Shown here piece by piece: positions 2,674-20,156 of a DNA stretch of 21,050 nt; within the stretch, counting starts at the first letter, position 1; each line of letters starts with the position of its first letter. A program made the translations under genes and the position numbers. The DNA is taken from positions 1-21,050 of the IMG/VR virus record IMGVR_UViG_3300044970_000512. One strand, given 5' to 3'. This stretch comes from a virus. Under the pieces are notes generated by a model that was not told the origin of the DNA, searched no databases, and saw only the letters and a list, made by a program, of their open reading frames with translations.

Positions 2674-3031
2674 ATTTGGAATAGAAGCAATTCACAAGTA
2701 TTCTGATGCGATGAAAGAACTTGCAGAGATTGAGGGTCGGGAGAGAGAAACCCCAGTTTATAGGTTCTTTGCGATTGATTACTTTGCGACTGGTGAGGGT
2801 AGATCTATTTGGCTGATGATTTGTCGTTATCATCTTGAAGAGAGGGATTATGAGTTTACAAAATTTGCAAACTTTGTTGGTGATGATCATTATCTACGCG
2901 GATTTGATGAACTTACAGAGCGAGAGTTTCTGGATAAGTATACGCGATTTATTCCCAACCTGATTGCCAATATGCTTCGGAATAAAACTATTGGTACTTG
3001 GCAAACACATTTACACTTTAATCTCTCATAG
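2642..3031 (+). CDS. Hypothetical protein (129 aa)
   Basis: The ATG at 2642 lies within the end of the preceding gene and starts MNEESRKKALEFGIEAIHKY. The first 35 residues are a helix paralogous to part of the upstream protein. The remainder (YRFFAIDYFATGEGRSIWLM...FVGDDHYLRGFDELTEREFL) looks like a small alpha/beta domain. This is the last gene of the first run: a gap of about 80 bp with a strong promoter follows. The C-terminal region has no recognisable catalytic motif. Confidence 0.75.
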   Translation: MNEESRKKALEFGIEAIHKYSDAMKELAEIEGRERETPVYRFFAIDYFATGEGRSIWLMICRYHLEERDYEFTKFANFVGDDHYLRGFDELTEREFLDKYTRFIPNLIANMLRNKTIGTWQTHLHFNLS

Positions 3032-3087
3032 GACACTTTCTAAACTGGCACACGGGAACTCCACAAACCCTGCGAATACCCTATAAT
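3031..3087 (+). promoter_or_regulatory. Early promoter with upstream palindrome (copy 1)
   Basis: A perfect -10 box TATAAT lies at 3082-3087. The imperfect palindrome GGACACTTT...AAACTGGCAC begins at 3031, 51 nt upstream of the -10 start. At 17-bp spacing the -35 position reads CTCCAC, not TTGACA. The predicted start near 3094 gives a short leader to the ATG at 3113. The right half-site AACTGGCAC is the best preserved in the window. Confidence 0.75.
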
Positions 3088-3112
3088 ACACCCATAAACA
3101 CCCATTATTGTG

Positions 3113-3376
3113 ATGACTTTTCAACCCTACAACATTGTTCCTGGAACTGAGATTCTTCATAGTTTGACTGATGTTTATGAACTTTGTGATGAAGCAGAGG
3201 GAATGACTTATCGTGTAGAACTCAATGCTGATAATGCGGGAGTTTATATTCGGTCAAGTGAAAAGGGACATGAAGAAGGTTCTAAAGACATTAGTGAAGA
3301 TATGTCTATCGGCAACAAACAACTTGCAATCGTTGTTGCTCGTCGTATTCTTGAACTTTATGGAGAACTGAAATGA
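3113..3376 (+). CDS. Hypothetical small protein (87 aa)
   Basis: This is the first gene after the TATAAT promoter. I use the ATG at 3113; a GTG directly before it is in frame. The protein (MTFQPYNIVPGTEILHSLTD...) has a beta-rich centre (MTYRVELNADNAGVYIRSSE) and a C-terminal helix (LAIVVARRILELYGELK) that ends much like the ITFAR-LE-IGE tails upstream. That may mean a distant relation, but the identity is too low to insist on. The stop overlaps the next ATG (ATGA). Function is unknown. Confidence 0.75.
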   Translation: MTFQPYNIVPGTEILHSLTDVYELCDEAEGMTYRVELNADNAGVYIRSSEKGHEEGSKDISEDMSIGNKQLAIVVARRILELYGELK

Positions 3377-3636
3377 ACATCAAATTTAAAGGACATTCAC
3401 CGACTGAACGTGAAGTAGAAATCACACAAAAAGAACTCTTCCAACTTTTTGAGATGATGCGTGAAGAGTTTGAAAATCATATTACATTTGCAAGATTTGG
3501 TCGTTCTTATCCGTGCAAACTTGAAAAATCTATTGTAGATTTTTGTGATTCTCATTCAGTTGATGTAGAATACGACAAAGATCGTGTTGCTTTCTTTAGT
3601 GCTATTCTAGACAACCTCAAGAACCCTTATCAATGA
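3373..3636 (+). CDS. Hypothetical small protein (87 aa)
   Basis: The start overlaps the upstream stop, and the stop overlaps the next ATG, so it sits in the middle of a coupled run. The sequence MNIKFKGHSPTEREVEITQK leads into an amphipathic helix (LFQLFEMMREEFENH) and an F-G-R-S-Y-P-C segment, then a closing helix. This could be a small helical regulator or host-interaction protein, but nothing in the sequence identifies it. It has no membrane segment or signal peptide. Confidence 0.75.
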   Translation: MNIKFKGHSPTEREVEITQKELFQLFEMMREEFENHITFARFGRSYPCKLEKSIVDFCDSHSVDVEYDKDRVAFFSAILDNLKNPYQ

Positions 3637-3833
3637 ACACAAGAGCACAAACAATCTGGAACGCATTTTGTGGTGAACTAATTGTAGAACCCACAGATGA
3701 TATGCGAGAAGCTCTTGCGACTGTTGTTCGTGAGATTGTGAATGAGTATCAATACTATCACTTTGGTGATGGTGAAGATATGGTAGTTGATGCTCGTGTG
3801 CTTTATGAACTTGCGGAGGAACTTGAAAAATGA
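3633..3833 (+). CDS. Hypothetical acidic helical protein (66 aa)
   Basis: The ORF overlaps both neighbours by 4 nt. The protein (MNTRAQTIWNAFCGELIVEP...) looks almost fully helical with an acidic C-terminus (YHFGDGEDMVVDARVLYELA). Proteins opening with this pattern, R-A-x-x-I-W-N-A-F, look familiar from cyanophage early regions, but I know of no assigned function. There is no metal-binding or nucleotide-binding motif. Confidence 0.72.
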   Translation: MNTRAQTIWNAFCGELIVEPTDDMREALATVVREIVNEYQYYHFGDGEDMVVDARVLYELAEELEK

Positions 3834-4012
3834 ACGACGAAAAGAACCCTGATGAGATTGTCGTCAGGGATATTGATATGATACACTTTGAAATGATGGA
3901 TGATGGGTTCCTCTGGTGTGGAATCTATCATAAGAATGGCCAGGTTGATCATTTTAACATCACTGCTAAAAAGAATAAACTCTCTACCATTTGGATGCCT
4001 GATTGTGGATAA
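3830..4012 (+). CDS. Hypothetical small beta-rich protein (60 aa)
   Basis: The ATG overlaps the upstream TGA. The protein (MNDEKNPDEIVVRDIDMIHF...) alternates short beta-like stretches: DIDMIHFEMMDDGFLWCGIY and HKNGQVDHFNITAK. This fits a small beta sheet or barrel with one tight turn. It ends in CG just before the stop, and the next gene probably starts at a GTG overlapping this stop. Function is unknown. Confidence 0.7.
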   Translation: MNDEKNPDEIVVRDIDMIHFEMMDDGFLWCGIYHKNGQVDHFNITAKKNKLSTIWMPDCG

Positions 4013-4289
4013 ACTCAAAGTAAATGTGGATCAGAAAGCTTTCTCTATGAAAGTTGATGAACTCTTTGATGTGATTACAAACATCGTTGCACACCCTCAC
4101 ACAGCTATCGTGAAACATGATAGAGAACGAGCTGCGAAGATCTTTCTTGCTCTTCAAGATTATGTCTATAATCACACTGAATGTTGGGAAAATACAGGAT
4201 GTTTTGTATCAGAACCTGCATTAGATTTTGATACATACCTTGAGGGAATCTTTGATGAAGATGAGATTTATGAAATTCATAACATGTAA
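4005..4289 (+). CDS. Hypothetical protein, start uncertain (about 94 aa)
   Basis: The frame is open far upstream, but its upstream part shadows the preceding gene. I place the start at the GTG at 4005, which overlaps that gene's stop; the ATG at 4047 is the main alternative. From there the protein reads as a helical domain (MKVDELFDVITNIVAHPHTA, then HDRERAAKIFLALQDYVYNH) with an acidic tail (DTYLEGIFDEDEIYEI). No known motif is visible. The stop lies inside the next gene. Confidence 0.6.
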   Translation: MDKLKVNVDQKAFSMKVDELFDVITNIVAHPHTAIVKHDRERAAKIFLALQDYVYNHTECWENTGCFVSEPALDFDTYLEGIFDEDEIYEIHNM

Positions 4290-4506
4290 ATGGGAAATGA
4301 TTGCATGGGGATTTGGAGCAATCTCTAATGCAATCTATTTTCGTTTAACCCTAGAAGATAATATAGATAGATGTGCATTTTTTGAAGAATTATCTGCGGG
4401 GTGGATTGGAATGGAGGATGAACATTTAATGTCTCAACCAGGTTTTGATCCTTATAATTTGAGTGGTAGAGATTCTTATTACACTTATGTGATGAGTAAA
4501 AAGTAA
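4270..4506 (+). CDS. Hypothetical small protein (78 aa)
   Basis: I choose the ATG at 4270, which overlaps the previous gene by 20 nt; a further in-frame ATG lies nine codons on. The protein (MKFITCKWEMIAWGFGAISN) has a moderately hydrophobic N-terminal third that could be a weak membrane segment, although charged residues interrupt it. The rest is acidic and aromatic, ending in DSYYTYVMSKK. The stop TAA overlaps the next ATG (TAATG). Function is unknown. Confidence 0.65.
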   Translation: MKFITCKWEMIAWGFGAISNAIYFRLTLEDNIDRCAFFEELSAGWIGMEDEHLMSQPGFDPYNLSGRDSYYTYVMSKK

Positions 4507-4856
4507 TGGACTTTCCAGTGTTCTTAAATAAATGGATAATCGGATTTAATCCGATTAAATACACGCCATTCTGGTGGTGGTATCGTCTTATGAGTCATCA
4601 AGGTTTTCGCTTTGATGATTATCATGTATGGGGAGAGTTTTGGCACTCTCTGAATGGTGGGTGGTTAGATATGAACTATCAATGGGAGTTTGAGAAGTTC
4701 TGGGGTAGGGGAGCAAAACCTGAGAGGATTGTACTACCTGCGAAGGACTTTGATGCTCTTGTAGAACGATTGAATCAACCACCAGATCCTATTGCAATGG
4801 AAAGATTCAAAGAAATACTAAATCGTAAAGCACCTTGGGAGAATAACGATGATTGA
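4506..4856 (+). CDS. Hypothetical protein with DUF1778-antitoxin-like C-terminus (116 aa)
   Basis: The start overlaps the upstream TAA. Two regions differ. Residues 1-70 are extremely aromatic (FWWWYRLMSHQGF, WGEFWHSLNGGWLDM). Residues about 75-116 (RIVLPAKDFDALVERLNQPP...RFKEILNRKAPW) resemble the C-terminal arm of DUF1778/TacA-type antitoxins, where the pattern L-x-x-x-x-F-x-x-x-L-x-x-P-P followed by a KAPW-type end wraps the toxin. The usual ribbon-helix-helix N-terminus is absent. The likeness is from memory and covers only about 40 residues. A perfect inverted repeat (AATCGGAT / ATCCGATT) sits at 4538-4556 inside the coding region. Confidence 0.7.
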   Translation: MDFPVFLNKWIIGFNPIKYTPFWWWYRLMSHQGFRFDDYHVWGEFWHSLNGGWLDMNYQWEFEKFWGRGAKPERIVLPAKDFDALVERLNQPPDPIAMERFKEILNRKAPWENNDD

Positions 4857-5019
4857 AGTAAAAGAAAGAGAAGATGGTTCATTTGATATTTCATGGGACG
4901 AAAATGATCCCACTGAAAGTATCTTGAATACCTGGACAGAACAGGACTTTATTGATTGTATTACGCAAGAATGTAAAAAGATTATTGAAAATGGTTCGGA
5001 AGAAACAACAAGTAACTGA
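4849..5019 (+). CDS. Hypothetical acidic small protein (56 aa)
   Basis: The ATG at 4849 overlaps the last codons of the upstream gene. The protein (MIEVKEREDGSFDISWDEND...) is strongly acidic, with a beta-like FDISWDENDP and a helix TEQDFIDCITQECKKIIENG. The pattern ISWDENDP-ES-LNTWTE-DFI looks familiar from small cyanophage proteins without assigned function. The 3' end overlaps the next gene by 29 nt in another frame. Confidence 0.7.
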   Translation: MIEVKEREDGSFDISWDENDPTESILNTWTEQDFIDCITQECKKIIENGSEETTSN

Positions 5020-5158
5020 GTTTTATAAAGTCGGATACATTCTTGACTATGAACAAAAATGGGCCTGTTACTTTGATTTTAATTGTGCCCAAGAAGCTAT
5101 GATGAAAATGATTCGTAATGGTGTGCATGTGACAGGCATGGAAACCCAGACCCTGTGA
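4991..5158 (+). CDS. Hypothetical small protein (55 aa)
   Basis: I start at the ATG at 4991 (MVRKKQQVTEFYKVGYILDY). An upstream in-frame start would lie wholly inside the preceding gene. The protein is a short beta unit (YKVGYILDYEQKWACYFDF) followed by a helix (CAQEAMMKMIRNGVHV). Its stop codon TGA at 5156-5158 is part of the GTGACAGTT half-site of the following promoter palindrome, so gene end and operator share bases. It closes the second run of small genes. Confidence 0.68.
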   Translation: MVRKKQQVTEFYKVGYILDYEQKWACYFDFNCAQEAMMKMIRNGVHVTGMETQTL

Positions 5159-5212
5159 CAGTTTACTGGCTGTCCACCGATCCCGCCGAAGGGGTTCTGA
5201 TCTTGGTATCTT
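5155..5212 (+). promoter_or_regulatory. Early promoter with upstream palindrome (copy 2)
   Basis: The palindrome starts with GTGACAGTT at 5155 and is followed by ACTGG and a closing CCAC ending at 5177. The -10 TATCTT lies at 5207-5212, 52 nt after the palindrome start. The -35 position reads CGCCGA, so there is no standard -35. The sequence after the -10 is AGCCATGTTGAGAG, shared with the copies at 17736 and 18642. A start near 5219 is expected. Confidence 0.72.
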
Positions 5213-5261
5213 AGCCATGTTGAGAGACATAGGTTGTCTCAAGACAACACAAAACCCCTTC
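5188..5261 (+). repeat. Inverted repeat flanking the promoter, with leader hairpins
   Basis: GAAGGGGTT at 5188-5196 is perfectly complementary to AACCCCTTC at 5253-5261, with the -10 box between them. Inside the leader, GTTGTC-TCAA-GACAAC at 5233-5248 makes a 6-bp hairpin (7 bp if a 2-nt loop is allowed). TTGAGA at 5220-5225 could instead pair with TCTCAA at 5237-5242. The two pairings exclude each other. Whether this controls the downstream gene is inference. Confidence 0.5.
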
Positions 5262-5279
5262 AAGTAACCTCAAGTCAAC

Positions 5280-5666
5280 ATGGCAACTCGCGGACGAATC
5301 GGCATCCAACTCAAGGATGGATCTGTTCTCTCTGTGTATTCACATTGGGATAATTATCCTGAGTGGAATGGTAAGAAACTCAAAGAACATTTTAACTCCT
5401 ATGAACAAGCTGCAGAGCTGATTGATGGTGGTGACATCAGTTCTCTGTGGACTGATACCGATTGGCAGAATAACAAAATGGAAAGCTATCGCACTCTGTA
5501 TTATGCAGAACGTGGTGAAGGTGACACCGAACCTAATCTGCACAATTCCTTCCAAGCTTTCATCAGTGGCGTGAATGATTCTTGGTCTGATTACGCCTAC
5601 CTCTTTGCCGATGGTGAGTGGAAGTGTTATACTCCTAAAGGTAATGAAGAACAAATCCCTGCGTGA
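5280..5666 (+). CDS. Conserved hypothetical cyanophage-type protein (128 aa)
   Basis: This is the first gene behind the promoter at 5155-5212. The protein opens MATRGRIGIQLKDGSVLSVY, then SHWDNYPEWNGKKLKEHF, a combination I associate with a recurrent cyanophage and bacterial small protein without a defined role. It is acidic and aromatic, with an N-terminal beta meander and a C-terminal beta segment (YAYLFADGEWKCYTPKG). It has no membrane segment and no recognisable catalytic residues. There is no strong Shine-Dalgarno before the ATG. A long structured leader of about 60 nt precedes it. Confidence 0.8.
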   Translation: MATRGRIGIQLKDGSVLSVYSHWDNYPEWNGKKLKEHFNSYEQAAELIDGGDISSLWTDTDWQNNKMESYRTLYYAERGEGDTEPNLHNSFQAFISGVNDSWSDYAYLFADGEWKCYTPKGNEEQIPA

Positions 5667-5667
5667 T

Positions 5668-5808
5668 ATGGAAAACCTTATTCAAGTGAAGTATTACTTC
5701 AAGGAACATCCAAACACTACTCTTTCGGTGTTCCTTAAAACTGAAGAACAGGTAGAGGCTTTCAAAGCCAAACATCCTGACTATGTTTATGTTGGAGAAA
5801 CTAAATGA
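5668..5808 (+). CDS. Hypothetical small protein (46 aa)
   Basis: The frame is open from 5575, but the upstream part shadows the preceding gene. The ATG at 5668 lies one base after that gene's TGA. The protein (MENLIQVKYYFKEHPNTTLS...) reads as strand, turn, strand, helix: VFLKTEEQVEAFKAKHPDYV. The ending EEQ-x-x-AF-x-x-KHPDYVYVG resembles a short ferredoxin-like half. The stop overlaps the next ATG (ATGA). No function is assigned. Confidence 0.7.
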   Translation: MENLIQVKYYFKEHPNTTLSVFLKTEEQVEAFKAKHPDYVYVGETK

Positions 5809-6209
5809 AACCTGACAACACTCTTCGCAACGCCAGTATCATTGGTGTTTCTTTTCTTGTCTCTCTGGTGATTATCAATGCTGTTATTGGTCCGATCTAT
5901 AATGTATGGGCACAATCCCTTGCAGGTAAAGCAGAACTACAAAAAGCAGAATATACCCGTCAAGTTGCAGTTCTTGAAGCACAAGCAAAGAAAGATAGCG
6001 CACAGCAATTAGCTGATGCTGAAGTGATCCGTGCTCAAGGTGTTGCTAAAGCAAACCAGATCATCGGTAACTCGCTGAAAGACAATCGTGAGTATCTGCA
6101 GTATCTGTATATTACTGGTCTGGAAGAAGGTTCTAACAAAGGTAATGTGACCATCTATGTTCCTACTGAAGGTGGAATGCCTGTTCCTACTCTGCAAATG
6201 AATAAGTGA
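5805..6209 (+). CDS. SPFH/prohibitin-like short membrane protein (134 aa)
   Basis: A transmembrane helix lies at residues about 9-33 (ASIIGVSFLVSLVIINAVIG). It is followed by an Ala/Gln/Glu-rich coiled coil (ELQKAEYTRQVAVLEAQAKK ... LADAEVIRAQGVAKANQIIG) and a tail NVTIYVPTEGGMPVPTL. This matches the C-terminal coiled coil and tail of SPFH/band 7 proteins such as prohibitin. The globular SPFH domain is missing, since full prohibitins are about 250-300 aa. It is probably an oligomerising inner-membrane protein exposed on one face, and it may interact with host FtsH/prohibitin complexes (inference). It overlaps the next gene by one base. Confidence 0.75.
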   Translation: MKPDNTLRNASIIGVSFLVSLVIINAVIGPIYNVWAQSLAGKAELQKAEYTRQVAVLEAQAKKDSAQQLADAEVIRAQGVAKANQIIGNSLKDNREYLQYLYITGLEEGSNKGNVTIYVPTEGGMPVPTLQMNK

Positions 6210-6574
6210 TGAAAAAGTTTCTGGTTGCAATGATGATTCTGACTGCAACTCCAACCTATGCGAATCAAACTTACCGACCTTTTACTTATGAAACCTCATG
6301 TGCATTGGAAACTCCTAGTGAGTTTCTGATTGATACATGTAAGGTGATTGAAACACGCGAGTCCAATGGAGCACTGCGGACTCGCAACATTTTCTCCAAT
6401 CGGTTCAAACTTACGATTAAATCGTGGTTTGATAAGAAAGAAGGTTTCTTGACTCGTGACTCTCACAATAACATTACATATAAGTGGCAGTATAAAACTG
6501 CTACCGTAGAAGGGCCTAATCCTTGGACTTATGTGATGCCAGGAGTATTGTTGCAGGATGTTTCATGGGACTAA
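6209..6574 (+). CDS. Secreted or periplasmic hypothetical protein (121 aa)
   Basis: I use the ATG at 6209, sharing one base with the upstream TGA; a GTG just before is in frame. The N-terminus MKKFLVAMMILTATPTYANQ is a clear Sec signal peptide with a likely cleavage after TYA. The mature part has two Cys residues (SCALE and DTCKV, about 14 apart) that could form a disulphide. It then has beta-rich sequence (FKLTIKSWFDKKEG, ITYKWQYKTA). Coupling to the membrane-anchored SPFH-like gene suggests both act at the host envelope. Family is not recognised. Confidence 0.75.
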   Translation: MKKFLVAMMILTATPTYANQTYRPFTYETSCALETPSEFLIDTCKVIETRESNGALRTRNIFSNRFKLTIKSWFDKKEGFLTRDSHNNITYKWQYKTATVEGPNPWTYVMPGVLLQDVSWD

Positions 6575-6578
6575 ATAC
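6570..6578 (+). promoter_or_regulatory. T4-type late promoter motif
   Basis: CTAAATACC lies 18 nt upstream of the ATG at 6597 and overlaps the stop codon of the preceding gene. CTAAATA/TATAAATA is the late -10 element read by the gp55 sigma factor in T4-like phages. There is no -35, as expected for that class. It suggests late expression of the acyltransferase, unlike its neighbours. Confidence 0.65.
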
Positions 6579-6596
6579 CTAAGTTTTTCTCTTAAA

Positions 6597-7217
6597 ATGT
6601 TTATCAAAAACAACAAACCAATCAGAATACTTGGGTATCCTCAATCTTCAATCGCAGAACAATACTGTCAAGTTTTTTCTAAAGAAGGTCTTGTTGATTT
6701 TGAGTTAATGATACCTGAAGATTTCAAATCTTTGGGTAATAAAAATCAATACCAATACATCATTGCTTTCTATCTCGATATGGAGCTTAGGAAAGAAATA
6801 TGTGACATATTGGATGATCTAAACTTAGATTGTGTTTCATACATAGATGACACAGTTTACATGTTTCCTTCCTCAAAAATAGGGAAAGGATGCTTTATTG
6901 GTCATCTAGTTGAAATTTGTTGGAATGCTTCTGTGGGAGATTACTGTTACTTTGATAATCAATCTGGTATTGGTCATGATGTTGTTTTAGGTAGAAACTG
7001 TATTGTAAGTTCTAGAGTTTATGTTGGAGGCAGAACAAAAATTGGAGAAAACTGTCTCTTTTACCTTAATGGTTCTGTTATGAATAACTTAAATGTTTGT
7101 GACAATGTAACTCTTTGTACACACAGTAATATTACAAAAGATATTACAAAACCAGGAAAATATGTAGGAAGAAATGCAAAACTTATGAAGTCGGAAACTA
7201 CCGATGAGGATCTCTGA
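6597..7217 (+). CDS. Hexapeptide-repeat (left-handed beta-helix) acyltransferase, NeuD/PglD-like
   Basis: I use the ATG at 6597, placed 18 nt after the late motif; an ATG at 6558 would lie inside the previous gene. Residues 1-80 look like the small Rossmann-type N-domain of NeuD/PglD-type O- or N-acetyltransferases (KPIRILGYPQSSIAEQ). Residues 90-195 carry imperfect hexapeptide repeats (SSKIGKGCFIGH, ASVGDYCYFDNQSGIGHDVV, TKIGENC) that form a left-handed beta-helix. The His in GIGHDV (about 127) sits where the family's catalytic His is found. At 206 aa it is full length. It probably acetylates a sugar in host surface glycans or on the virion; the substrate is unknown. Confidence 0.8.
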   Translation: MFIKNNKPIRILGYPQSSIAEQYCQVFSKEGLVDFELMIPEDFKSLGNKNQYQYIIAFYLDMELRKEICDILDDLNLDCVSYIDDTVYMFPSSKIGKGCFIGHLVEICWNASVGDYCYFDNQSGIGHDVVLGRNCIVSSRVYVGGRTKIGENCLFYLNGSVMNNLNVCDNVTLCTHSNITKDITKPGKYVGRNAKLMKSETTDEDL

Positions 7218-7229
7218 TTGGTCAGCCCC

Positions 7230-7258: not shown

Positions 7259-7281
7259 GGCCTTGTTCAACTGATTCACTT

Positions 7282-7431: not shown

Positions 7432-7458
7432 AAGTATGGTAATGGTTTAGAGGTTTGG

Positions 7459-9222: not shown

Positions 9223-9280
9223 TCCATAAGGATTTCTGATCGTTAAGCCCCTTGCCCTCCCCAGGGGTAGGGGGTATTCT
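9220..9280 (+). promoter_or_regulatory. Hairpin plus sigma70-type promoter
   Basis: CCTTG...TAAGG makes a weak 5-bp hairpin at the gene end, followed by CTGATC, then AGCCCCTTGCCC. The -35 is TTGCCC at 9252-9257 and the -10 is TATTCT at 9275-9280, 17 bp apart. AGCTTTG follows the -10. The unit is nearly the same as that at 10659-10725, so the two promoter cassettes are related copies. Confidence 0.72.
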
Positions 9281-9303
9281 AGCTTTGTAATGAGATTTCT
9301 ACG

Positions 9304-10680: not shown

Positions 10681-10696
10681 CCTGATCCAAGAGCCC

Positions 10697-10725
10697 TTGC
10701 CCCGTCTGGGGTAAGGGTGTATTCT
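10697..10725 (+). promoter_or_regulatory. Sigma70-type early promoter
   Basis: TTGCCC (10697-10702), 17-bp spacer, TATTCT (10720-10725), then AGCTGT. It has the same CTGATC...AGCCC context as the promoter at 9252. The predicted start near 10732 means the in-frame TTG at 10733 would be almost leaderless, which supports the ATG at 10748 as the helicase start. Confidence 0.75.
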
Positions 10726-10747
10726 AGCTGTATTGAAACGCAATTTC

Positions 10748-13489: not shown

Positions 13490-14041
13490 ATGGAAAAGTG
13501 GGAAGTTTACGCTGAAGGAACCTTCAACAACATGAGGGGGAACATTCACAACTGGAACCGATCATTTGATGACAAACGAAAGATCTCCCGTGACTTTTAC
13601 TACGGGGTATTTGATGCAGGCAATCCTAACCCGTTGGGGTTGATTAGTGAACAGGCTTTGGAGAACCAACTCACAAAGAAATACAGGCTAAACACTTGGG
13701 ATCACTATCACTCCCCCCAATTTGTGGGTAGGATGATTGCAGAGAATCCAGACAAGTATCTGGAGGATTATGAGGCGTTCAAGGAGATCTTTCTGGTCTG
13801 CACACAACAAATCTGTGTGACTAAAAAGGAGAACGAGAACCTCTCTTTTCTCACTGCACCCGATAAGGAAGATTACAAGGTTCTTGTACCTACCAATCTC
13901 AAATACAATCATCTCGGTATCAAATTGTATCAGAGAGAAGAGGGTAAAGTAAGGTGGAAACATTCTTATCCCGTTGACACCAACATCCTTGACATTCCTG
14001 AAGATCTGTTAGAATATGAAAAGAGGTATCTAGTCGCATGA
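13490..14041 (+). CDS. Hypothetical protein of unknown family (183 aa)
   Basis: The ATG at 13490 lies 15 nt after the oxygenase stop, and the stop overlaps the next ATG. The protein (MEKWEVYAEGTFNNMRGNIH) has the His/Asp-rich segment TWDHYHSPQFVGRMI (about 69-83), then a helix PDKYLEDYEAFKEIFLVC and a region rich in Lys/Asn. DHYHSP might be a metal site, but one motif alone is not enough to call an HNH nuclease. The close spacing to the oxygenase suggests shared expression and perhaps that it acts on, or presents, the same substrate (inference). Confidence 0.78.
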   Translation: MEKWEVYAEGTFNNMRGNIHNWNRSFDDKRKISRDFYYGVFDAGNPNPLGLISEQALENQLTKKYRLNTWDHYHSPQFVGRMIAENPDKYLEDYEAFKEIFLVCTQQICVTKKENENLSFLTAPDKEDYKVLVPTNLKYNHLGIKLYQREEGKVRWKHSYPVDTNILDIPEDLLEYEKRYLVA

Positions 14042-14427
14042 ACTTTCCAAACACAAGTATCCTAGACCCTGATAATGGGCCCACAGGATTCACCACACCC
14101 GACTTCCAGTTTGCTGCTATTCCCTTTGGAAATCAGTACATGATTATCGCAGAGGGTCAACAGATTGAAGTAGTTGATACTCGACAGCTTGCAGAGATTC
14201 GGCTTGAACAATTAAAAAACTCGCATCGGGTTCGCAAGACAGGTAGTAAGACACCTGTGAGCCAGAAATCGCAAAAAAAGGCGAAACCGTCTAGTGGCCG
14301 CAAGGGTTCTCAGGGGTCAAAACCCAAGGCCACCAAGGGTTCCACCACAAAACCCAAATCCAAGAGTGTGCCAGTCAAGAAACCGCACACCCTTCACCCG
14401 AATCCGCTCATGGATGCACTATCTTAG
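14038..14427 (+). CDS. Protein with basic histone-H1-like tail (129 aa)
   Basis: The start overlaps the upstream TGA (ATGA). Residues 1-65 are a compact-looking domain (FQFAAIPFGNQYMIIAEGQQ, then VVDTRQLAEIRLEQLK). Residues about 66-120 are low-complexity Lys/Ser/Thr/Pro/Gly (SQKSQKKAKPSSGRKG, KPKATKGSTTKPKSK), like the disordered DNA-binding tail of linker histones. It may bind nucleic acid through charge. The last 20 codons contain the promoter palindrome and -10 box of the next gene, so amino acid choice in the tail is constrained by an operator. Family is not recognised. Confidence 0.78.
   Translation: MNFPNTSILDPDNGPTGFTTPDFQFAAIPFGNQYMIIAEGQQIEVVDTRQLAEIRLEQLKNSHRVRKTGSKTPVSQKSQKKAKPSSGRKGSQGSKPKATKGSTTKPKSKSVPVKKPHTLHPNPLMDALS
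14368..14425 (+). promoter_or_regulatory. Early promoter with upstream palindrome (copy 3), inside a coding region
   Basis: GTGCCAGT at 14368 and CCGCACAC ending at 14390 form the palindrome (outer arms GTGTGC / GCACAC perfect). The -10 TATCTT is at 14420-14425, 52 nt from the palindrome start, followed by AGCTTTGTTAGAGA. The -35 position (CCCGAA) is not consensus. The whole unit lies in the 3' part of the upstream gene and drives the ATG at 14445. Confidence 0.68.
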
Positions 14428-15516: not shown

Positions 15517-15896
15517 TGGATTACGTTACTCCAACTCATCAGGACATTCTCGATGCAATCCGACAAGCTAACTTCGTAGTATTTGTAAACAATCACAAGG
15601 TTTGCAAAACTCAAAAGTATGATGGCTATGTGATTACGACAAGAAATCACATGAATCAATCGAGAAAAAATGAGTTTGTAATTTGTCCAAGTGTTATTGA
15701 AAAAAACTATGAAGATTGGCAAGGTGAAGTTAATCGCACCATTGCACATGAGGCAGTTCATGTAGCACAAGTATGCAGATTCAAAGATGGTTACATTCGA
15801 CCTCTTGGATTCAGAAAAGACATTGAGAAAGAAGCCTTTGCGATTCAAGACAATCCTAGAGAGGTTCTTCGCATCCTCAAAAAATACTGCCTCTGA
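15516..15896 (+). CDS. Small HExxH metallopeptidase-like protein (126 aa)
   Basis: I use the ATG at 15516, which shares one base with the upstream stop. The zinc motif HEAVH lies at 78-82 (NRTIAHEAVHVAQVC). A second acidic helix, EKEAFAI (104-110), about 24 residues downstream offers a third zinc ligand, Glu106, as in small gluzincins. The length (126 aa) is close to the minimal catalytic unit of such minigluzincin/IrrE-SprT-like peptidases. A host-protein cleavage role, perhaps at the membrane with its coupled partner, is inference. There is no signal peptide. Confidence 0.75.
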   Translation: MDYVTPTHQDILDAIRQANFVVFVNNHKVCKTQKYDGYVITTRNHMNQSRKNEFVICPSVIEKNYEDWQGEVNRTIAHEAVHVAQVCRFKDGYIRPLGFRKDIEKEAFAIQDNPREVLRILKKYCL

Positions 15897-15898
15897 CC

Positions 15899-15927
15899 TT
15901 GACAAATCCAAACAAAACATTTACACT
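15899..15927 (+). promoter_or_regulatory. Sigma70-type early promoter
   Basis: TTGACA (15899-15904), exactly 17 bp, TACACT (15922-15927), followed by AAAGGAG. The predicted start near 15934 gives a leader of about 17 nt to the ATG at 15951. No palindrome is present upstream, so this promoter belongs to the second class. Confidence 0.65.
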
Positions 15928-15950
15928 AAAGGAGTAGTTTAACACTGAAA

Positions 15951-16184
15951 ATGAAGTATCTCTATCTCGTTGATTATTGGGTTCCGTTTCCTTCTTCTGA
16001 ATACGGTGGCGTCGTAAGTGTCATCGCAGAGAATGACAATGAGTGCCACGATGTTCTTCTAGAATGGCGTGATGAGTATGAAAATGCTCATGATTCTCGC
16101 ATCATGGAACGTGTAGTAAATGCACATAAGTTTGCTCTTGTGGATGAAGAACCTTCTCGTGTTGTTGATAGTTTTACAACCTGA
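15951..16184 (+). CDS. Hypothetical small protein (77 aa)
   Basis: This is the first gene behind the TTGACA promoter. The protein (MKYLYLVDYWVPFPSSEYGG, then VVSVIAENDNECHDVLLEWR) reads as two beta strands, a helix and further strands, possibly a ferredoxin-like unit of the kind often seen in small phage proteins. Acidic and aromatic residues dominate. It overlaps the next ATG by one base. The function is unknown. Confidence 0.74.
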   Translation: MKYLYLVDYWVPFPSSEYGGVVSVIAENDNECHDVLLEWRDEYENAHDSRIMERVVNAHKFALVDEEPSRVVDSFTT

Positions 16185-16360
16185 TGGACTTCCTAACGTA
16201 TAAAGAACGAGAATTGATTTATAGATCAGTTCAATACTATAAAGAACATTTCGATTCATCCAACGAAGAACTTAAATGGGACTGCGATGTAGTTTTGGAA
16301 AAGTTTTGTCCATATGTTAATATCAATGGAATTGAACCTGGGTTTAGATCGGATGTGTAA
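16184..16360 (+). CDS. Hypothetical small protein (58 aa)
   Basis: The ATG at 16184 shares a base with the preceding TGA, and the frame runs to a TAA at 16358-16360. The protein (MDFLTYKERELIYRSVQYYK) is a charged helix followed by an acidic segment (FDSSNEELKWDCDVVLEKFC) and a short tail. Its position in the coupled chain is the main support. No motif is recognised. Confidence 0.6.
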   Translation: MDFLTYKERELIYRSVQYYKEHFDSSNEELKWDCDVVLEKFCPYVNINGIEPGFRSDV

Positions 16361-16362
16361 AG

Positions 16363-16485
16363 ATGACTGAAGACCAACTAATTTTGATTGAGTGCCTTGC
16401 TGATGATGAAGAATGGCAAGAATGGGAACAAAAAGCACAACAATACAATGTAACGATTGGTTACTACATCGCTGAGTTCGTGTGA
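16363..16485 (+). CDS. Hypothetical very small acidic protein (40 aa)
   Basis: The ATG at 16363 lies 2 nt after the previous stop, and the TGA at 16483-16485 is embedded in the GTGACAGTT half-site of the next promoter palindrome. The peptide (MTEDQLILIECLADDEEWQE, then WEQKAQQYNVTIGYYIAEFV) is a single acidic helix with a hydrophobic end. Its length is at the limit of confidence; support comes from operon spacing. Confidence 0.55.
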   Translation: MTEDQLILIECLADDEEWQEWEQKAQQYNVTIGYYIAEFV

Positions 16486-16539
16486 CAGTTTGCGAACTGG
16501 TACAGAGGGCCTTTACAGGGCCCTTTTTTCATGTATTAT
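16482..16539 (+). promoter_or_regulatory. Early promoter with upstream palindrome (copy 4), nested with a terminator
   Basis: GTGACAGTT (16482-16490), TGCG, AACTGG (16495-16500) then TAC form the palindrome. The -10 TATTAT lies at 16534-16539, 52 nt from the palindrome start. A near-consensus -35 TTTACA (16512-16517) lies 16 bp upstream of the -10 and covers most of the loop of the terminator hairpin. A start near 16546 would be leaderless for the ATG at 16546. Confidence 0.72.
16507..16529 (+). terminator. Intrinsic terminator
   Basis: GGGCC (16507-16511), loop TTTACAG, GGCCC (16519-16523), then TTTTTT (16524-16529). This is a GC-rich stem followed by six T, the classical Rho-independent form. 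It ends the run 15951-16485 and isolates the downstream gene. Confidence 0.8.
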
Positions 16540-16545
16540 GGCCAC

Positions 16546-17439
16546 ATGAAGAACACTCACCTAGAACATCCCGAAGACGCGATCCTGAACGATGGTCGGG
16601 ATGGTGCAAAGAATGTCCTGCGATTCCTGCGGGAACGCAACAGCAAACTGTCTGTAAAGTATGATGGTGCTCCTGCAATCGTGTGGGGTACTTGTCCTTT
16701 CACGGGTAGATTTTTTGTTGGTACGAAAAGTGTATTCAACAAGAAAAAGATCAAGATCAATTATTCTCACTACGACATTTCTGTCAATCATGATGGGAAT
16801 GTTGCGTCGATTCTGCATGTTTGTTTCGACAATCTCCCTCGCATCAAAGGTATTGTGCAGGGTGATTTCATCGGTTTCGGTGGTAATGACTTCTACAAGC
16901 CTAACACGATTGAATACAACTTCAGTCGTCTTGTGGAAGAGAATGTGATCATTGCTGCACACACTTCCTACACCAGTTCTACTCATCTGAAAGACGCAGT
17001 TGCATCGTTCGGTGTTGATGAGGAACTGCAATCTCCTAATGTTAAGTTCCTGAAAACTGATGCACACTTTACCTCCCGTCGTCGTCGAATTGATCTCCTT
17101 CTTGGTCTTGCAAGTGTGGCTATCAATTTTGTTAAGTTCCCTTCGCAAAAAGAAGGACAAGAACTCAAAGTAGCTGTGAACAAGTGCATCCGCGAACAAC
17201 GCGACATTGCAGAGTCGGGTATGGACAACAACCTGATGATTCTCTACAAACTCATCATTGAGATCAAAGAGCTTCTCATGGAAGGTATCACCTCCGTTGA
17301 GAATGTTCAATGTTACATTGGTGATGAAAAGTGCGATCATGAAGGTTATGTAATGACCAACAAGTTTGGTACTTTCAAACTGGTGAATCGTCGTCAGTTT
17401 TCTTATGCAAACTTTACTCTCAAAAAATCCTGGAGCTGA
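16546..17439 (+). CDS. Ligase/nucleotidyltransferase-fold protein, DUF6267-like (297 aa)
   Basis: I start at the ATG at 16546 (MKNTHLEHPEDAIL) because the -10 box lies over the alternative ATG at 16531. Residues 38-48 (KYDGAPAIVWG) fit motif I K-x-D-G of covalent nucleotidyltransferases, with Lys38 as the candidate AMP/GMP acceptor. GDFIGF (106-111) suits motif III, EGYV (266-269) motif IV, and FKLVNR (277-282) motif V. This order is that of DNA/RNA ligases and capping enzymes. A C-terminal OB domain is absent. I recall similar proteins as DUF6267 in cyanophages. A role in RNA or DNA end repair, or transfer to a protein, is possible but unproved. Confidence 0.75.
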   Translation: MKNTHLEHPEDAILNDGRDGAKNVLRFLRERNSKLSVKYDGAPAIVWGTCPFTGRFFVGTKSVFNKKKIKINYSHYDISVNHDGNVASILHVCFDNLPRIKGIVQGDFIGFGGNDFYKPNTIEYNFSRLVEENVIIAAHTSYTSSTHLKDAVASFGVDEELQSPNVKFLKTDAHFTSRRRRIDLLLGLASVAINFVKFPSQKEGQELKVAVNKCIREQRDIAESGMDNNLMILYKLIIEIKELLMEGITSVENVQCYIGDEKCDHEGYVMTNKFGTFKLVNRRQFSYANFTLKKSWS

Positions 17440-17443
17440 AACA

Positions 17444-17728
17444 ATGAAGTTTTCTGATCTTGAGTTTAATCCTCACCGATTTGAGCATGGTATTCATGCC
17501 AAACATGAGTTTGATAATGGATATGGTGTCAGTGTTTTGCGATTCAACATTACACTTTTGAATGGTGAAGTTGTGCAGGGTTCTTATGGTTCTCTTGAAG
17601 GGCTGTATGAAGTCGCTGTAACCAAAGGTGGAAAGCCTTGTTATGATACTCCTATCGCTGATGGTGTGATCGGTTATTGTGATGAGGCTGATGTTGAAGA
17701 CATTATGGAACAAGTCGCAAAACTTTAG
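17444..17728 (+). CDS. Hypothetical small protein (94 aa)
   Basis: I start at the ATG at 17444, 4 nt after the ligase-like gene; an in-frame ATG at 17405 would lie in the previous gene. GGAG lies upstream at a suitable distance. The protein (MKFSDLEFNPHRFEHGIHAK, then FDNGYGVSVLRFN) has a beta-rich core with Gly-turns and an acidic C-terminus (EADVEDIMEQVAKL). This pattern resembles small cyanophage proteins of unknown function. It is probably co-expressed with the ligase-like gene. Confidence 0.78.
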   Translation: MKFSDLEFNPHRFEHGIHAKHEFDNGYGVSVLRFNITLLNGEVVQGSYGSLEGLYEVAVTKGGKPCYDTPIADGVIGYCDEADVEDIMEQVAKL

Positions 17729-17735
17729 GATCACT

Positions 17736-17792
17736 GTGCCAGTTCCGGAACCGGCCTAGTCCCTTGCCAGAGGTCGCCAGGCAGTGTATTGT
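17736..17792 (+). promoter_or_regulatory. Early promoter with palindrome and consensus-like -35 (copy 5)
   Basis: GTGCCAGTTCCGGAACCGGC starts at 17736. The -35 is TTGCCA (17764-17769), the spacer 17 bp, the -10 TATTGT (17787-17792), followed by AGCCATGTTGAGAGG. It is a hybrid: the palindrome of the first promoter class and the TTGCC -35 of the second. Confidence 0.75.
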
Positions 17793-17814
17793 AGCCATGT
17801 TGAGAGGTTTCCCC

Positions 17815-18048
17815 ATGACCCACACAATCGCAGAACGCACCACGATGTCACAAGGTATGCCGATCACGGTTACCACTGTGAACGGAATGGATCGCGTTGA
17901 GATTAACAACAAACTACATAAGATTGGTGATCAGTTGCTCAAACTGAAAATGCAACAACAGTATTATGTTGAAATGCGAAATGTAATTGATCGTCAGAAC
18001 GAAATGCTTGAGATGGATGATCTTTTTGATGAATTGTTTGGAGGTTAA
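17815..18048 (+). CDS. Hypothetical coiled-coil small protein (77 aa)
   Basis: I use the ATG at 17815 (MTHTIAERTTMSQGMPITVT). The ATG at 17797 (MLRGFP-) is in frame but coincides with the expected transcription start. A short beta unit (MPITVTTVNGMDRVEINNKL) precedes a long helix (KIGDQLLKLKMQQQYYVEMR, then NVIDRQNEMLEMDDLFDELF) likely to form a coiled coil. GGAGG near its 3' end serves as Shine-Dalgarno for the next gene. No function is assigned. Confidence 0.74.
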   Translation: MTHTIAERTTMSQGMPITVTTVNGMDRVEINNKLHKIGDQLLKLKMQQQYYVEMRNVIDRQNEMLEMDDLFDELFGG

Positions 18049-18050
18049 TT

Positions 18051-18167
18051 ATGACACCGAACTGGCAACATAACTCTGGTAAGAATAAACAAACCAAGGG
18101 AATGTGTAAGGGTAAAGTTAAAGCCCGCAAACAAGCTCTCCAACACCTGAAACTCAAACTTAAATGA
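18051..18167 (+). CDS. Very small basic protein (38 aa)
   Basis: The ATG at 18051 is preceded by GGAGGTTAATT, the same leader used by the gene at 19441. The peptide (MTPNWQHNSGKNKQTKGMCK, then GKVKARKQALQHLKLKLK) contains many Lys/Arg and almost no acidic residues, so it probably binds nucleic acid or an acidic partner. The strong Shine-Dalgarno and the 4-nt overlap with the next gene support expression. Confidence 0.65.
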   Translation: MTPNWQHNSGKNKQTKGMCKGKVKARKQALQHLKLKLK

Positions 18168-18409
18168 CCCGTACTCTCTCTGAACTTCGTCAAGCTATTG
18201 ATCGCATGATTCAACAGCAAGGTGAAACTGCCCCTGTCGCTGCATGGATCTATACGAAAGAAGATGTCCTAGATTATCCCGATGAGGTTGAAGTAACTGA
18301 GGAAGTTGCTAATCAAGTGATTGAAAGCCTGGATCAATACGATCACATCTATACGGAAATCTTTGATCTAATTGATGAAGAACTCCGTCAAATGAACGTC
18401 CTTAACTAA
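18164..18409 (+). CDS. Hypothetical acidic helical protein (81 aa)
   Basis: The ATG overlaps the upstream TGA (ATGA). The protein (MTRTLSELRQAIDRMIQQQG, then YTKEDVLDYPDEVEVTEEVA) is rich in Glu/Asp, with helices at both ends (VIESLDQYDHIYTEIFDLID). It follows a strongly basic 38-aa protein in the same transcript, so the two could bind one another; this is only suggested by charge. No known family is identified. Confidence 0.74.
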   Translation: MTRTLSELRQAIDRMIQQQGETAPVAAWIYTKEDVLDYPDEVEVTEEVANQVIESLDQYDHIYTEIFDLIDEELRQMNVLN

Positions 18410-18419
18410 ACACACTATC

Positions 18420-18635
18420 ATGGCAAAACGTTACACTAAGTTTGATCTGACTGCAAAACAACTGATTGCTCTTGTTCTTTTGATCATTCTTCTAGCTGGT
18501 GGTATCATTGCCTTCCAAGCCTGGTTGCTCGGTATTGTTCTGGGTTGGTTCGGAGTGACTCTGGCATTCTGGCAAAATGTTGTGATTGTGTTGCTCATTG
18601 GTATGTTATTCGGTGGTTCTCGGAGCAGCAAATGA
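18420..18635 (+). CDS. Small two-helix membrane protein (71 aa)
   Basis: Two hydrophobic segments are visible: about 13-33 (LIALVLLIILLAGGIIAFQA) and about 35-65 (LLGIVLGWFGVTLAFW, then NVVIVLLIGMLFGG). The basic N-terminus (MAKRYTKFDLTAK) and the basic end (SRSSK) both favour the cytoplasmic side. This suits an inner-membrane hairpin. Timing or lysis functions are possible for small phage membrane proteins, but there is no holin signature beyond the topology. Confidence 0.75.
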   Translation: MAKRYTKFDLTAKQLIALVLLIILLAGGIIAFQAWLLGIVLGWFGVTLAFWQNVVIVLLIGMLFGGSRSSK

Positions 18636-18641
18636 TCTAGT

Positions 18642-18699
18642 GTGCCAGTTGGTGGACTGGACACCAGATCCGCCACTGGGGGCTCAGATCAGGTATCTT
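18642..18699 (+). promoter_or_regulatory. Early promoter with upstream palindrome (copy 6)
   Basis: GTGCCAGTT at 18642 and ACTGGACAC ending at 18664 form the palindrome. The -10 TATCTT lies at 18694-18699, exactly 52 nt from the palindrome start, followed by GGCCATGTTGAGAGG. The -35 position reads CGCCAC. The surrounding ATCCGCCACTGGGGGCTCAG resembles sequence before the promoter at 20070. Confidence 0.75.
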
Positions 18700-18724
18700 G
18701 GCCATGTTGAGAGGAATCCACCCC

Positions 18725-18889
18725 ATGCGAATTGATGTTAAGTGCTACGGAGCTCCTTGGGAGAACACTACCACTGACATGGACAAAGCTTATGATCTCG
18801 CATACGATTTGAGCGAAGAATACCAGTGCGATGTAGACCTTCGCTACAACGAAACTGGTATCATTTTCACCACCGTTTCTAACTACTGA
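18725..18889 (+). CDS. Hypothetical small protein (54 aa)
   Basis: I use the ATG at 18725 (MRIDVKCYGAPWENTTTDMD); the in-frame ATG at 18704 falls at the expected transcription start. The protein reads as strand, helix, strand: RIDVKCYGAPW, KAYDLAYDLSEEYQCDVDLR, ETGIIFTTVSNY. This resembles a small ferredoxin-like or swapped-hairpin fold. Function is unknown. The next gene begins 2 nt after the stop. Confidence 0.7.
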   Translation: MRIDVKCYGAPWENTTTDMDKAYDLAYDLSEEYQCDVDLRYNETGIIFTTVSNY

Positions 18890-18891
18890 TC

Positions 18892-19122
18892 ATGAGAACT
18901 CTGACTCTCCAAGTTACTGAAGCTTCATTTGATTTTGATGATCTTGACTTCACTCCTGAAGAACAACAACAGGTGATTGATTCTGTTGTTGGTAATGTCT
19001 TTGAGGTGGAAGTTGATGATGAAGATGATGATGAAGCCATCGCTGATGTTCTAGTTGAAGAAGTGACAGATTACACTGGTTGGTGTGTATTTTCTCTTGA
19101 CTTTATTCATGTTCTGAAATGA
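18892..19122 (+). CDS. Hypothetical highly acidic protein (76 aa)
   Basis: The ATG at 18892 follows closely on the previous gene. The protein (MRTLTLQVTEASFDFDDLDF) contains the run VEVDDEDDDEAIADVLVEE, giving a strong negative charge, and a C-terminal strand GWCVFSLDFIHVLK. DNA mimicry or binding to a basic host protein would fit the charge, but this is inference. The stop overlaps the next ATG. Confidence 0.72.
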   Translation: MRTLTLQVTEASFDFDDLDFTPEEQQQVIDSVVGNVFEVEVDDEDDDEAIADVLVEEVTDYTGWCVFSLDFIHVLK

Positions 19123-19277
19123 CTGATAAATACGAACTCGTTGACTTTTTGCTTGAAAAATGTTTAGAAGATACGGATCTTCTAGAGAACATTATTGAAG
19201 ATTATGTTACGACAATGAGTGATAGTAAGTTTGAAGAGCTTGAAGATTTCATGGTCAACAACTTTGGAGATAATTGA
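19119..19277 (+). CDS. Hypothetical acidic helical small protein (52 aa)
   Basis: The ATG at 19119 overlaps the preceding TGA (ATGA). The protein (MTDKYELVDFLLEKCLEDTD, then LLENIIEDYVTTMSDSKFEE, LEDFMVNNFGDN) is entirely helical and acidic. The codons for T-D-K-Y spell GATAAATAC, a late-promoter core, but a strand of the coupled operon continues through it. I treat that as possible coincidence. Confidence 0.66.
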   Translation: MTDKYELVDFLLEKCLEDTDLLENIIEDYVTTMSDSKFEELEDFMVNNFGDN

Positions 19278-19438
19278 TGAACGTTTCTATTCTTCGCCCA
19301 TACCTGTTCACCAATGAGCAAATGAGTTTGATCTATGATCTGCTCAGTGCTTATTTGGGTGAGGCAGATGAACCTGAGGATCTTGCTCTCACTCAGACAA
19401 CTTTAGATGTTATTACTTTACAAACTGTAGGAGGTTAA
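19277..19438 (+). CDS. Hypothetical small protein (53 aa)
   Basis: The ATG at 19277 shares a base with the previous TGA. The protein (MNVSILRPYLFTNEQMSLIY, then DLLSAYLGEADEPEDLALTQ) looks like an amphipathic helix with an acidic loop and a short C-terminal helix. GGAGG in its final codons acts as Shine-Dalgarno for the next gene. No motif is recognised. Confidence 0.65.
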   Translation: MNVSILRPYLFTNEQMSLIYDLLSAYLGEADEPEDLALTQTTLDVITLQTVGG

Positions 19439-19440
19439 TT

Positions 19441-19578
19441 ATGTTTTCTATTCTCACTATTGTCGCCGCATGGTTCGCCTTTGGCTATTGTGTCACTGAC
19501 ATTATTCTGAATGCCCGAAGTGCTAAGCGTCTGGATGAAATGTTGAATGACATTGAGGAGATGCAGAAGAAAGATTGA
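19441..19578 (+). CDS. Single-pass small membrane protein (45 aa)
   Basis: The ATG at 19441 is preceded by GGAGGTTAATT. One N-terminal hydrophobic segment (MFSILTIVAAWFAFGYCVTD) is followed by a charged helix (ARSAKRLDEMLNDIEEMQKK). It is probably an inner-membrane anchor with a cytoplasmic coiled coil. It lies 2 nt before the RlpA-like gene, so the two are probably co-translated, and this protein might supply membrane localisation for its partner (inference). Confidence 0.68.
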   Translation: MFSILTIVAAWFAFGYCVTDIILNARSAKRLDEMLNDIEEMQKKD

Positions 19579-19580
19579 TT

Positions 19581-19886
19581 ATGATTTTAGCTGGTTTGAT
19601 GTGTGGCATTGCTACATACTATGGAATCGGAGATGGCTTTCATGGAAAACTCACGGCTAACGGGACTAGGTTTCATGCTCATAATCTTACTGCAGCTCAC
19701 CCTTATTTGCCTTTCGGCACGAAACTGAGAATCACCAATCAAGATAACATGAAACAGGTGATTGTAAGAGTCAATGATCGTGGGCCATACAGCCACGCAG
19801 ACATTGATCTTTCGTATGGAGCTTTCAGGAAGATTGCTCCTCCATCCAAAGGTAACGCAGTTGTCTGTTATCGGGTGATCGGTTAG
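19581..19886 (+). CDS. RlpA-like double-psi beta-barrel protein (101 aa)
   Basis: The sequence follows the RlpA/DPBB pattern: ATYYGIGDGFHGKLTANGTR, NLTAAHPYLPFGTKLRITN, VIVRVNDRGPY, DIDLSYGAFRKIAP. The residues H40 and the NDRGP and DIDLS motifs are those of the family. RlpA proteins act as lytic transglycosylases or bind peptidoglycan in the periplasm. Here the start MILAGLMCGIATYYG has no proper signal peptide, so delivery would rely on lysis-stage membrane damage or a partner. A TTG at 19575 adds two residues only. It may assist host cell-wall degradation. Confidence 0.85.
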   Translation: MILAGLMCGIATYYGIGDGFHGKLTANGTRFHAHNLTAAHPYLPFGTKLRITNQDNMKQVIVRVNDRGPYSHADIDLSYGAFRKIAPPSKGNAVVCYRVIG

Positions 19887-20156
19887 TTACAACAATTCAT
19901 TTTTTGATGATTCTAATTGCAACGGATGAACCAATCCCCTACTGGGGTAAAATTGCAGAAAAATCAAAGTTTGCTCAAACTCAAACCCCTTGCCACAACA
20001 GGGATCTCACTGAGACAGAATCGGGACTCACTGGGGGCTGGTATGATCGTCCCCAAACCCAGCCCCCTTGTGACAATCCGCAAACCGCACACTAATCCCC
20101 CCACTGGGCGCTGATACGATGTATCTTAGCTATGTTGAGAGAAACACACAACTCCC
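19887..20156 (+). other. Intergenic region with repeated promoter-like modules and a GC hairpin
   Basis: These 270 bp hold no convincing gene; the short ORFs here have unlikely compositions. Three degenerate modules of ATC-CCC-ACTGGG type are visible, with starts at 19934, 20020 and 20094. The first has a CCCC-TACT-GGGG mini-hairpin (19936-19947). The second ends in TATGAT (20042-20047). The third belongs to the functional-looking promoter at 20122. GGGGGCTGG (20033-20041) pairs perfectly with CCAGCCCCC (20059-20067). A TTGCCA at 19990 has no -10 at the right spacing. Confidence 0.55.
20070..20127 (+). promoter_or_regulatory. Early promoter with upstream palindrome (copy 7)
   Basis: GTGACAAT at 20070 and CCGCACAC ending at 20092 are the most degenerate palindrome copy. 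The -10 TATCTT lies at 20122-20127, 52 nt from its start, followed by AGCTATGTTGAGAG. The -35 position reads CCCCAC. The predicted start is near 20134, with about 23 nt of leader to the ATG at 20157. Confidence 0.66.

Follow-up and report, generated by a model that had tools for sequence, protein, structure and literature searches.

Described systems closest to the window promoters

T4-like cyanophages are very abundant in the sea. The middle promoters of T4 carry a MotA box, TGCTT, near -30, and Doron 2016 is said to have found in Syn9 and P-TIM40 a "novel regulatory element" of early genes which is conserved among T4-like cyanophages. The subject of the present analysis is a palindromic operator that stands, at a nearly constant distance from a -10 box, at seven places in a stretch of 21,050 bases from an IMG/VR virus record (IMGVR_UViG_3300044970_000512; the whole stretch is referred to as the window). 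Like the MotA box it would be an activator site that replaces or supplements the -35 region, but it lies near -53, is palindromic and is without TGCTT in the window spacers; a T4 MotA middle promoter was rejected on the absence of this box, by eye, from all seven. The NtcA box GTA-N8-TAC (as given in PMC3037559) was also rejected, both the consensus and the seven window copies misfitting it by eye.

The regulators of the cyanobacterial small RNA Yfr2 offer the nearest parallel. A GntR regulator common to all cyanobacteria, PMM1637, is reported to bind yfr2 promoter regions bearing the element CGRE1 and to mediate the induction of Yfr2 in high light and late nitrogen starvation; in MED4, according to the same paper, CGRE1 was found nowhere beyond the yfr2 promoters (PMC6778093). 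The regulator has been named PlmA and is described as a partner of PII-PipX (PMC7344720, PMC6243067), present in all cyanobacteria and confined to them (PMC7344720). On the phage side, a 2010 review (PMC2984593) states that the cyanomyoviruses are without alt, modA, motA and asi homologues, that sigma-70-like motifs stand ahead of early homologues in S-PM2 and Syn9, and that the mechanism of early and middle transcription was still unclear. If a host factor were named and its operator defined, that question could be put to a direct test.

The window elements are instances of a promoter type that recurs in all the T4-like cyanophages examined. We consider it likely that the phage operator is a site for PlmA (PMM1637/Sll1961), that the host Yfr2 promoters use the same half-site in a similar place, and that the phage promoters are PlmA-dependent; the regulator is probably the host's own.

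Distribution of the palindrome and its distance from the -10 box

The palindrome can be read as a pair of half-sites of the degenerate form GTGNCA(G/C)TT, and the operator can be written GTGNCAGTT-N4-AACTGNCAC, 22–23 bp long and centred near -53. The bare palindrome was counted in 18 records, allowing at most 3 mismatches of 18, with the reversed pattern as control (in brackets): window 3 (1), Syn9 8 (2), S-PM2 9 (2), S-CRM01 25 (1), P-SSM2 15 (0), P-SSM4 7 (1), S-ShM2 4 (1), DSL-LC02 6 (1), S-T4 7 (0), P-HM1 6 (0), ACG-2014f 30 (2) and S-PRM1 4 (2). All of these T4-like cyanophages are filed under the Kyanoviridae save the window and P-HM1 (Eurybiavirus, in a record without family). Outside them no excess was seen in T4 (0, control 0), RB49 (1, control 2), P-SSP7 (0, control 1), PSS2 (0, control 1) or Ma-LMM01 (0, control 2), and S-TIM5 had two (control 0), one of them with a -10 box in place. 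In one strict form the palindrome occurs in at least 120 stretches of viral contigs. The sites of ACG-2014f and S-CRM01 cluster amid small unknown genes and tRNA genes.

For six cyanophages the palindromes were picked on the palindrome alone, at the same threshold, and TAnnnT was then sought on either strand. It lay 51–54 nucleotides (nt) from the first palindrome base in 80 of 93 cases (S-CRM01 18/25, DSL-LC02 6/6, ACG-2014f 29/30, Syn9 4/8, P-SSM2 15/15 and S-PM2 8/9). When oriented sites were sorted into bins of 4 nt, 89 fell at 51–54 and the other bins held 4–27, all but one of them 4–13. An earlier note on this DNA had proposed a dyad DNA site fixed relative to the -10 box and had staked the idea on enrichment in related phages; both are borne out in these six genomes, T4 having no such site. 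A profile built with each genome left out in turn gave a peak at 51–53 nt in all six, and the two matches that it found in T4 were both without a -10 box. Among five further T4-like cyanophages, where 22 of the 28 matched sites were inspected by eye, the -10 box was in place at 15 (P-SSM4 4/5, S-ShM2 2/4, S-T4 4/4, P-HM1 3/5, S-PRM1 2/4). In viral contigs, 189 oriented palindromes, counted on both strands after removal of copies with identical flanks, gave 62 matches to TATAAT (at least 5 of 6) at 52 or 53 nt. The annotated stretch of ACG-2014f holds 25 plus-strand sites, and for 20 of the 24 that list a next start codon this lies 79–86 nt off, so the promoter unit occupies the intergenic space.

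Such an intergenic palindrome could also be an RNA stem-loop, the terminator of the upstream gene set ahead of a promoter; T4-type phages, RB49 among them, have promoter-early stem-loop (PeSL) cassettes of this kind. Both are compact intergenic units that precede a sigma-70 promoter, in some cases have a terminator, and are scattered among small genes of unknown function. The palindromes of ACG-2014f often begin a few nt from the end of the preceding gene, those of S-CRM01 at 125866 (125862–125891) and 154637 (154634–154661) are entered by its depositors as rho-independent terminators, and a terminator-like hairpin is present within the spacer at window positions 16507–16529 and at 10 of 89 sites elsewhere. 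Yet a run of four T within 8 nt 3' of the palindrome occurs at 1 of 89 sites, and arm positions 4-19 and 7-16 form Watson-Crick pairs in only 32 and 34, respectively, of 89 oriented sites; where they do not, A/G, and G/G or C/C, are the most frequent combinations. Since two arm positions are unpaired in most sites, the element is best taken as a DNA site and not an RNA stem. A terminator, moreover, has no need of a constant 51–54 nt to the next -10 box, and 7 of the 15 P-SSM2 palindromes (e.g. AY939844, 66592–66613) show TAnnnT at the right distance on each strand, some of them by chance because this genome is AT-rich; this suggests that one palindrome can serve two divergent promoters. A stem-loop is therefore very improbable, and an RNA stem, terminator or PeSL was rejected on arm pairing, scarcity of T-runs and fixed spacing. 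The cyanophage palindrome differs from the PeSL in being a DNA site with no hairpin, and RB49 itself gave one weak match against two for the control.

The half-site in cyanobacterial promoters

The earlier note knew of no described factor with this site. That statement is not supported, since the same half-site, at a similar distance, marks the Yfr2 promoters of cyanobacteria, and PMM1637/PlmA is reported to bind those which bear CGRE1 (PMC6778093). Seventy-two small cyanobacterial genomes (1.5–3.1 Mb), picked by hand, were searched for a PlmA homologue. A full-length one was present in single copy in 46, which are regarded from their size as mostly picocyanobacteria; two more gave weak matches only, and one a partial match. 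Yfr2 was found in 46 of the 46 PlmA-bearing genomes, with 118 matches in all, and in none of the 30 small genomes of a first search, where PlmA was unchecked and the lineages may be non-photosynthetic.

Of the 118 Yfr2 copies, 70 (30 obtained as loci, and 40 taken from higher up the list) were analyzed over the 160 nt that precede them. The half-site GTGNCAGTT/AACTGNCAC was present exactly, on either strand, in 34 of the 70 (mononucleotide-shuffled mean 0.27, maximum 3), and with one mismatch in 58 (shuffled mean 6.3). In the sense direction, with at most one mismatch, 40 copies had it 57–66 nt ahead of the RNA; the other 10-nt bins held 5, 2, 1 and otherwise 0. Fourteen of the 30 loci, which come from genomes of Prochlorococcus size, carry it as GTGACAGTTAAGATAGAGGTCT with at most one change. 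If the phage start is assumed from a -10 box at 52–53 nt, it falls about 64 nt from the first palindrome base, which is close to the 57–66 nt of Yfr2. Half-sites placed back to back, as AACTGNCAC-N-GTGNCAGTT or nearly so, were seen at the Yfr2 promoters of loci L442, L445, L453, L454, L456, L457 and L497, and in some copies the half-site stands just 21–24 nt from the RNA.

The full palindrome is also found in hosts. When 84,980 species genomes were scanned for exact matches, 113 stretches were returned, with titles for 80. A shared layout was recognized in 45 loci, namely the palindrome, a TATnyT box 54 nt off (42 of 45), and a conserved RNA with terminator; the usual distance in phages is 52–53 nt. 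These are 45 of 47 oriented loci, picked by a shared TGCAAGGAGT, and some are near-identical or come from one genome; where titled, they belong to filamentous cyanobacteria, mostly Nostoc, Calothrix, Fischerella and their kin. Among 386 cyanobacterial genomes the palindrome occurred with at most one mismatch in 61, and a control match in 18 (by eye). Five further palindrome loci, picked by eye, matched Cyano-1/Yfr2 (RF01701) above the cut-off, the RNA starting 61–64 nt from the first palindrome base.

The conserved RNA of the filamentous cyanobacteria (L321:2841–3070, L286, L284 and 42 loci among L253–L364) is about 160 nt long, its ends being approximate. It runs approximately from TGCAAGGAGTGATACCA to a terminator such as AGCGCTTGAGTGAGCAAAACTCTCAAGCGCTTTTT. 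No match to it was found in Rfam at gathering thresholds or sensible E-values, and it may be an undescribed PlmA-controlled small RNA.

The phage promoters thus resemble those with CGRE1 in the half-site GTGNCAGTT at a similar distance from the start, as in 40 of 70 Yfr2 copies, and in the full palindrome ahead of Yfr2 in five loci. They differ in that the phage sites are many per genome and precede protein-coding and tRNA genes, and in that the phage palindrome is spaced whereas the Yfr2 half-site is single or back to back.

The candidate regulator

A Fischerella protein (L396) was assigned by us as a putative PlmA because it has a GntR domain and its homologues are single-copy. Over 30 homologues from small genomes, the helix-turn-helix (HTH) domain averages 77% identity to that of the Fischerella protein and the remainder 45%, and relatives in the PDB were limited to distant matches of GntR-type HTH. 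With this query no PlmA was found by tblastn (E ≤ 1e-5) in cyanophages among 50,697 phage records. A phage-encoded PlmA was accordingly discarded as a candidate, the matches being only partial ones, in four Escherichia, Salmonella and Listeria phage records.

The operator might instead belong to a factor other than PlmA, whether phage-encoded, virion-borne or another host regulator, with the resemblance to Yfr2 due to shared ancestry or coincidence. The small-genome Yfr2 sites are arranged unlike the phage sites, several of the 10 window proteins scanned are without a family of known function, and the identification of the binding protein as PlmA is tentative. However, the same 9-nt half-site stands at a similar distance from the start in Yfr2 promoters, the full palindrome precedes cyanobacterial RNAs, where a phage factor is not expected, and PMM1637 is reported to bind Yfr2 promoters (PMC6778093). 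We therefore regard another factor as unlikely, and PlmA as the preferred regulator.

Proposed action of PlmA at the phage promoters

In the uninfected cell, PlmA on the half-site would raise transcription of the Yfr2 small RNA. On the phage genome a PlmA dimer would cover roughly -64 to -43, next to the upstream edge of the -35 region, and would help host RNA polymerase to bind, or to stay bound, at promoters that are often poor in a -35, acting before any phage factor exists. The predicted layout comprises the operator near -53, a -10 box of the sigma-70 type and an optional -35. We infer that the phage copies are bound by PlmA, which would act there as an activator, and that the promoters serve early genes; activation is preferred to repression because of the position of the site and the induction of Yfr2. 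The more far-reaching proposal, that T4-like cyanophages run this promoter class via PlmA by copying the Yfr2 operator, that one palindrome may drive two divergent promoters (P-SSM2), and that the many copies may draw PlmA off Yfr2 and so link infection to host nitrogen and light signalling (PII-PipX-PlmA), has in our judgement an even chance of being right.

The sites could, conversely, be primarily decoys which soak up scarce PlmA dimers and so alter Yfr2 and its targets, any activation being secondary. There are as many as 30 palindromes per genome, and a table quoted in PMC6243067 gives about 400 PlmA chains per S. elongatus cell. A decoy would nevertheless have no need of constant spacing to a -10 box, and several phages have few sites, so that we hold this to be extremely unlikely.

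Several observations weigh against PlmA-dependent promoters. On the host side, the sense half-site at 57–66 nt is missing in 30 of the 70 Yfr2 copies, and these copies are not independent, many being from close relatives or a single genome. In place of the spaced palindrome, the Yfr2 promoters of small genomes have a single strong half-site, to which a second is often joined back to back (AACTGNCAC-GTGNCAGTT); in the 46 PlmA-bearing genomes the spaced form (at most 3 mismatches) was above its control in 11, equal in 3 and below in 32. No constant distance from half-site to -10 box was found at the small-genome Yfr2 promoters, where the TAnnnT offsets ranged over 50–61 and were most often 58. 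That CGRE1 is the half-site GTGNCAGTT we also infer. On the phage side, the -10 box is not in place at 7 of 25 palindromes in S-CRM01, 4 of 8 in Syn9, 1 of 30 in ACG-2014f and 1 of 9 in S-PM2, nor at 2 of 4 sites in each of S-ShM2 and S-PRM1, some of these on a doubtful strand. When freshwater-type copies were picked solely by the stretch at the -10 box, of which 32 had the full 60 nt upstream, the best left half-site lay 51–53 nt off in 14 only, and in 9 a spurious best match fell at 13 nt. Finally, a recognisable -35 is also present at 39 of 89 sites, and the regulator may therefore only tune these promoters.

Should PlmA prove to be the activator, infection would at its onset be coupled to a protein that reportedly binds the PII-PipX nitrogen complex (PMC6243067) and mediates Yfr2 induction (PMC6778093).

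A search of the literature, in the portions available and with Lambrecht 2018 (CGRE1) and Doron 2016 outside its coverage, gave nothing tying the palindrome GTGNCAGTTNNNNAACTGNCAC to cyanophage promoters, nor any statement of the wider proposal on PlmA. The element of Doron 2016 comes from the same kind of phage, and Syn9 has eight palindromes (control 2), four with the -10 box in place; by description the two may or may not be the same motif. The window sites are best taken as new members of a promoter class that has probably been described, and the link of PlmA to phage promoters may be new or may already be contained in Lambrecht 2018.

The seven sites of the window

Similar DNA was found in 11 phage records, all 11 of Synechococcus phages and S-PM2 and DSL-LC02 among them, and from these short similar stretches the window appears to be a piece of a T4-like cyanophage. 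Its sites were scored with a profile of 32 columns trained on 66 sites from six other cyanophages, the window being left out. At a score of at least 4 with TAnnnT 51–53 nt off there were seven oriented matches, one of which is the 16482 palindrome in reverse reading; 60 dinucleotide shuffles averaged 0.1 and never exceeded 1.

All seven pairs lie on the plus strand. The first palindrome (AGGACACTTTCTAAACTGGCAC, 3030–3051, score 26.0) is followed after 52 nt by the -10 box TATAAT (3082–3087). The second (GTGACAGTTTACTGGCTGTCCAC, 5155–5177, score 13.1), with its right arm displaced by 1 nt, is likewise 52 nt from a -10 box which, with the conserved stretch 3' of it, reads TATCTTAGCCATGTTGAGAG (5207–5226). 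The third is weak (14368–14390, score 5.4) and lies within the open reading frame (ORF) 14038–14427, whose stop codon is overlapped by the -10 box TATCTT (14420–14425). The fourth, the best copy with 1 of 18 positions mismatched (16482–16503, score 32.3), is separated from its -10 box TATTAT (16534–16539) by a spacer which contains, by eye, the hairpin GGGCC..GGCCC+T6 resembling an intrinsic terminator (16507–16529); the listed ORF 16531–17439 (phrog_455) begins at this -10 box or shortly 3' of it. The fifth palindrome (17736–17757, score 20.3) stands 51 nt from TATTGT, which is joined to the conserved stretch with two mismatches (17787–17806), and the sixth (18642–18664, score 13.1) precedes TATCTT with the same stretch and one mismatch (18694–18713). 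The seventh (20070–20092, score -4.8) is degenerate and is followed by TATCTT and the conserved stretch (20122–20141).

All seven pairs claimed in the earlier note are thus present within 1 nt of the positions given there, the first palindrome starting at 3030 and not 3031. The constancy of the distance, put at 51–52 nt, is upheld: with 3030 in register, the values from first palindrome base to first -10 base are, in order, 52, 52, 52, 52, 51, 52 and 52. As for the palindromes themselves, five match the outside profile well (3030, 16482 and 17736 strongly, 5155 and 18642 fairly) and 14368 is marginal, but the copy at 20070 does not, being recognised solely by its spacing and -10 region; it has a recognisable left arm in the related contigs L013 and L032. 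The count of promoters lacking a -35 has to be lowered from five to four of seven, as a resemblance to TTGACA at 16–17 nt spacing is seen at 3030 (TCCACA, 4/6), 16482 (TTTACA, 5/6) and 17736 (TTGCCA, 5/6).

The sequence TATCTTAGCYATGTTGAGAG, which includes the -10 box, occurs exactly at 5207 and 20122, with one mismatch at 18694 and with two at 17787; it is exact in 42 stretches of viral contigs. The conserved stretch behind the -10 box, (A/G)GCCATGTTGAGAG, is strongly kept in the freshwater types, reappears in the marine S-T4 (L513) as TTGGCCATGTTGAGAG, and has an altered form in S-PRM1 (L510).

Two promoter-like stretches at 9249–9284 and 10694–10729 of the window have a related -10 region, TATTCTAGCT, and show a CCCTTGCC..GGGG hairpin where the palindrome would stand. 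Between 9304 and 13475 the window holds, by PHROGs, Endonuclease VII-like, DNA methyltransferase, helicase and taurine-dioxygenase-like genes.

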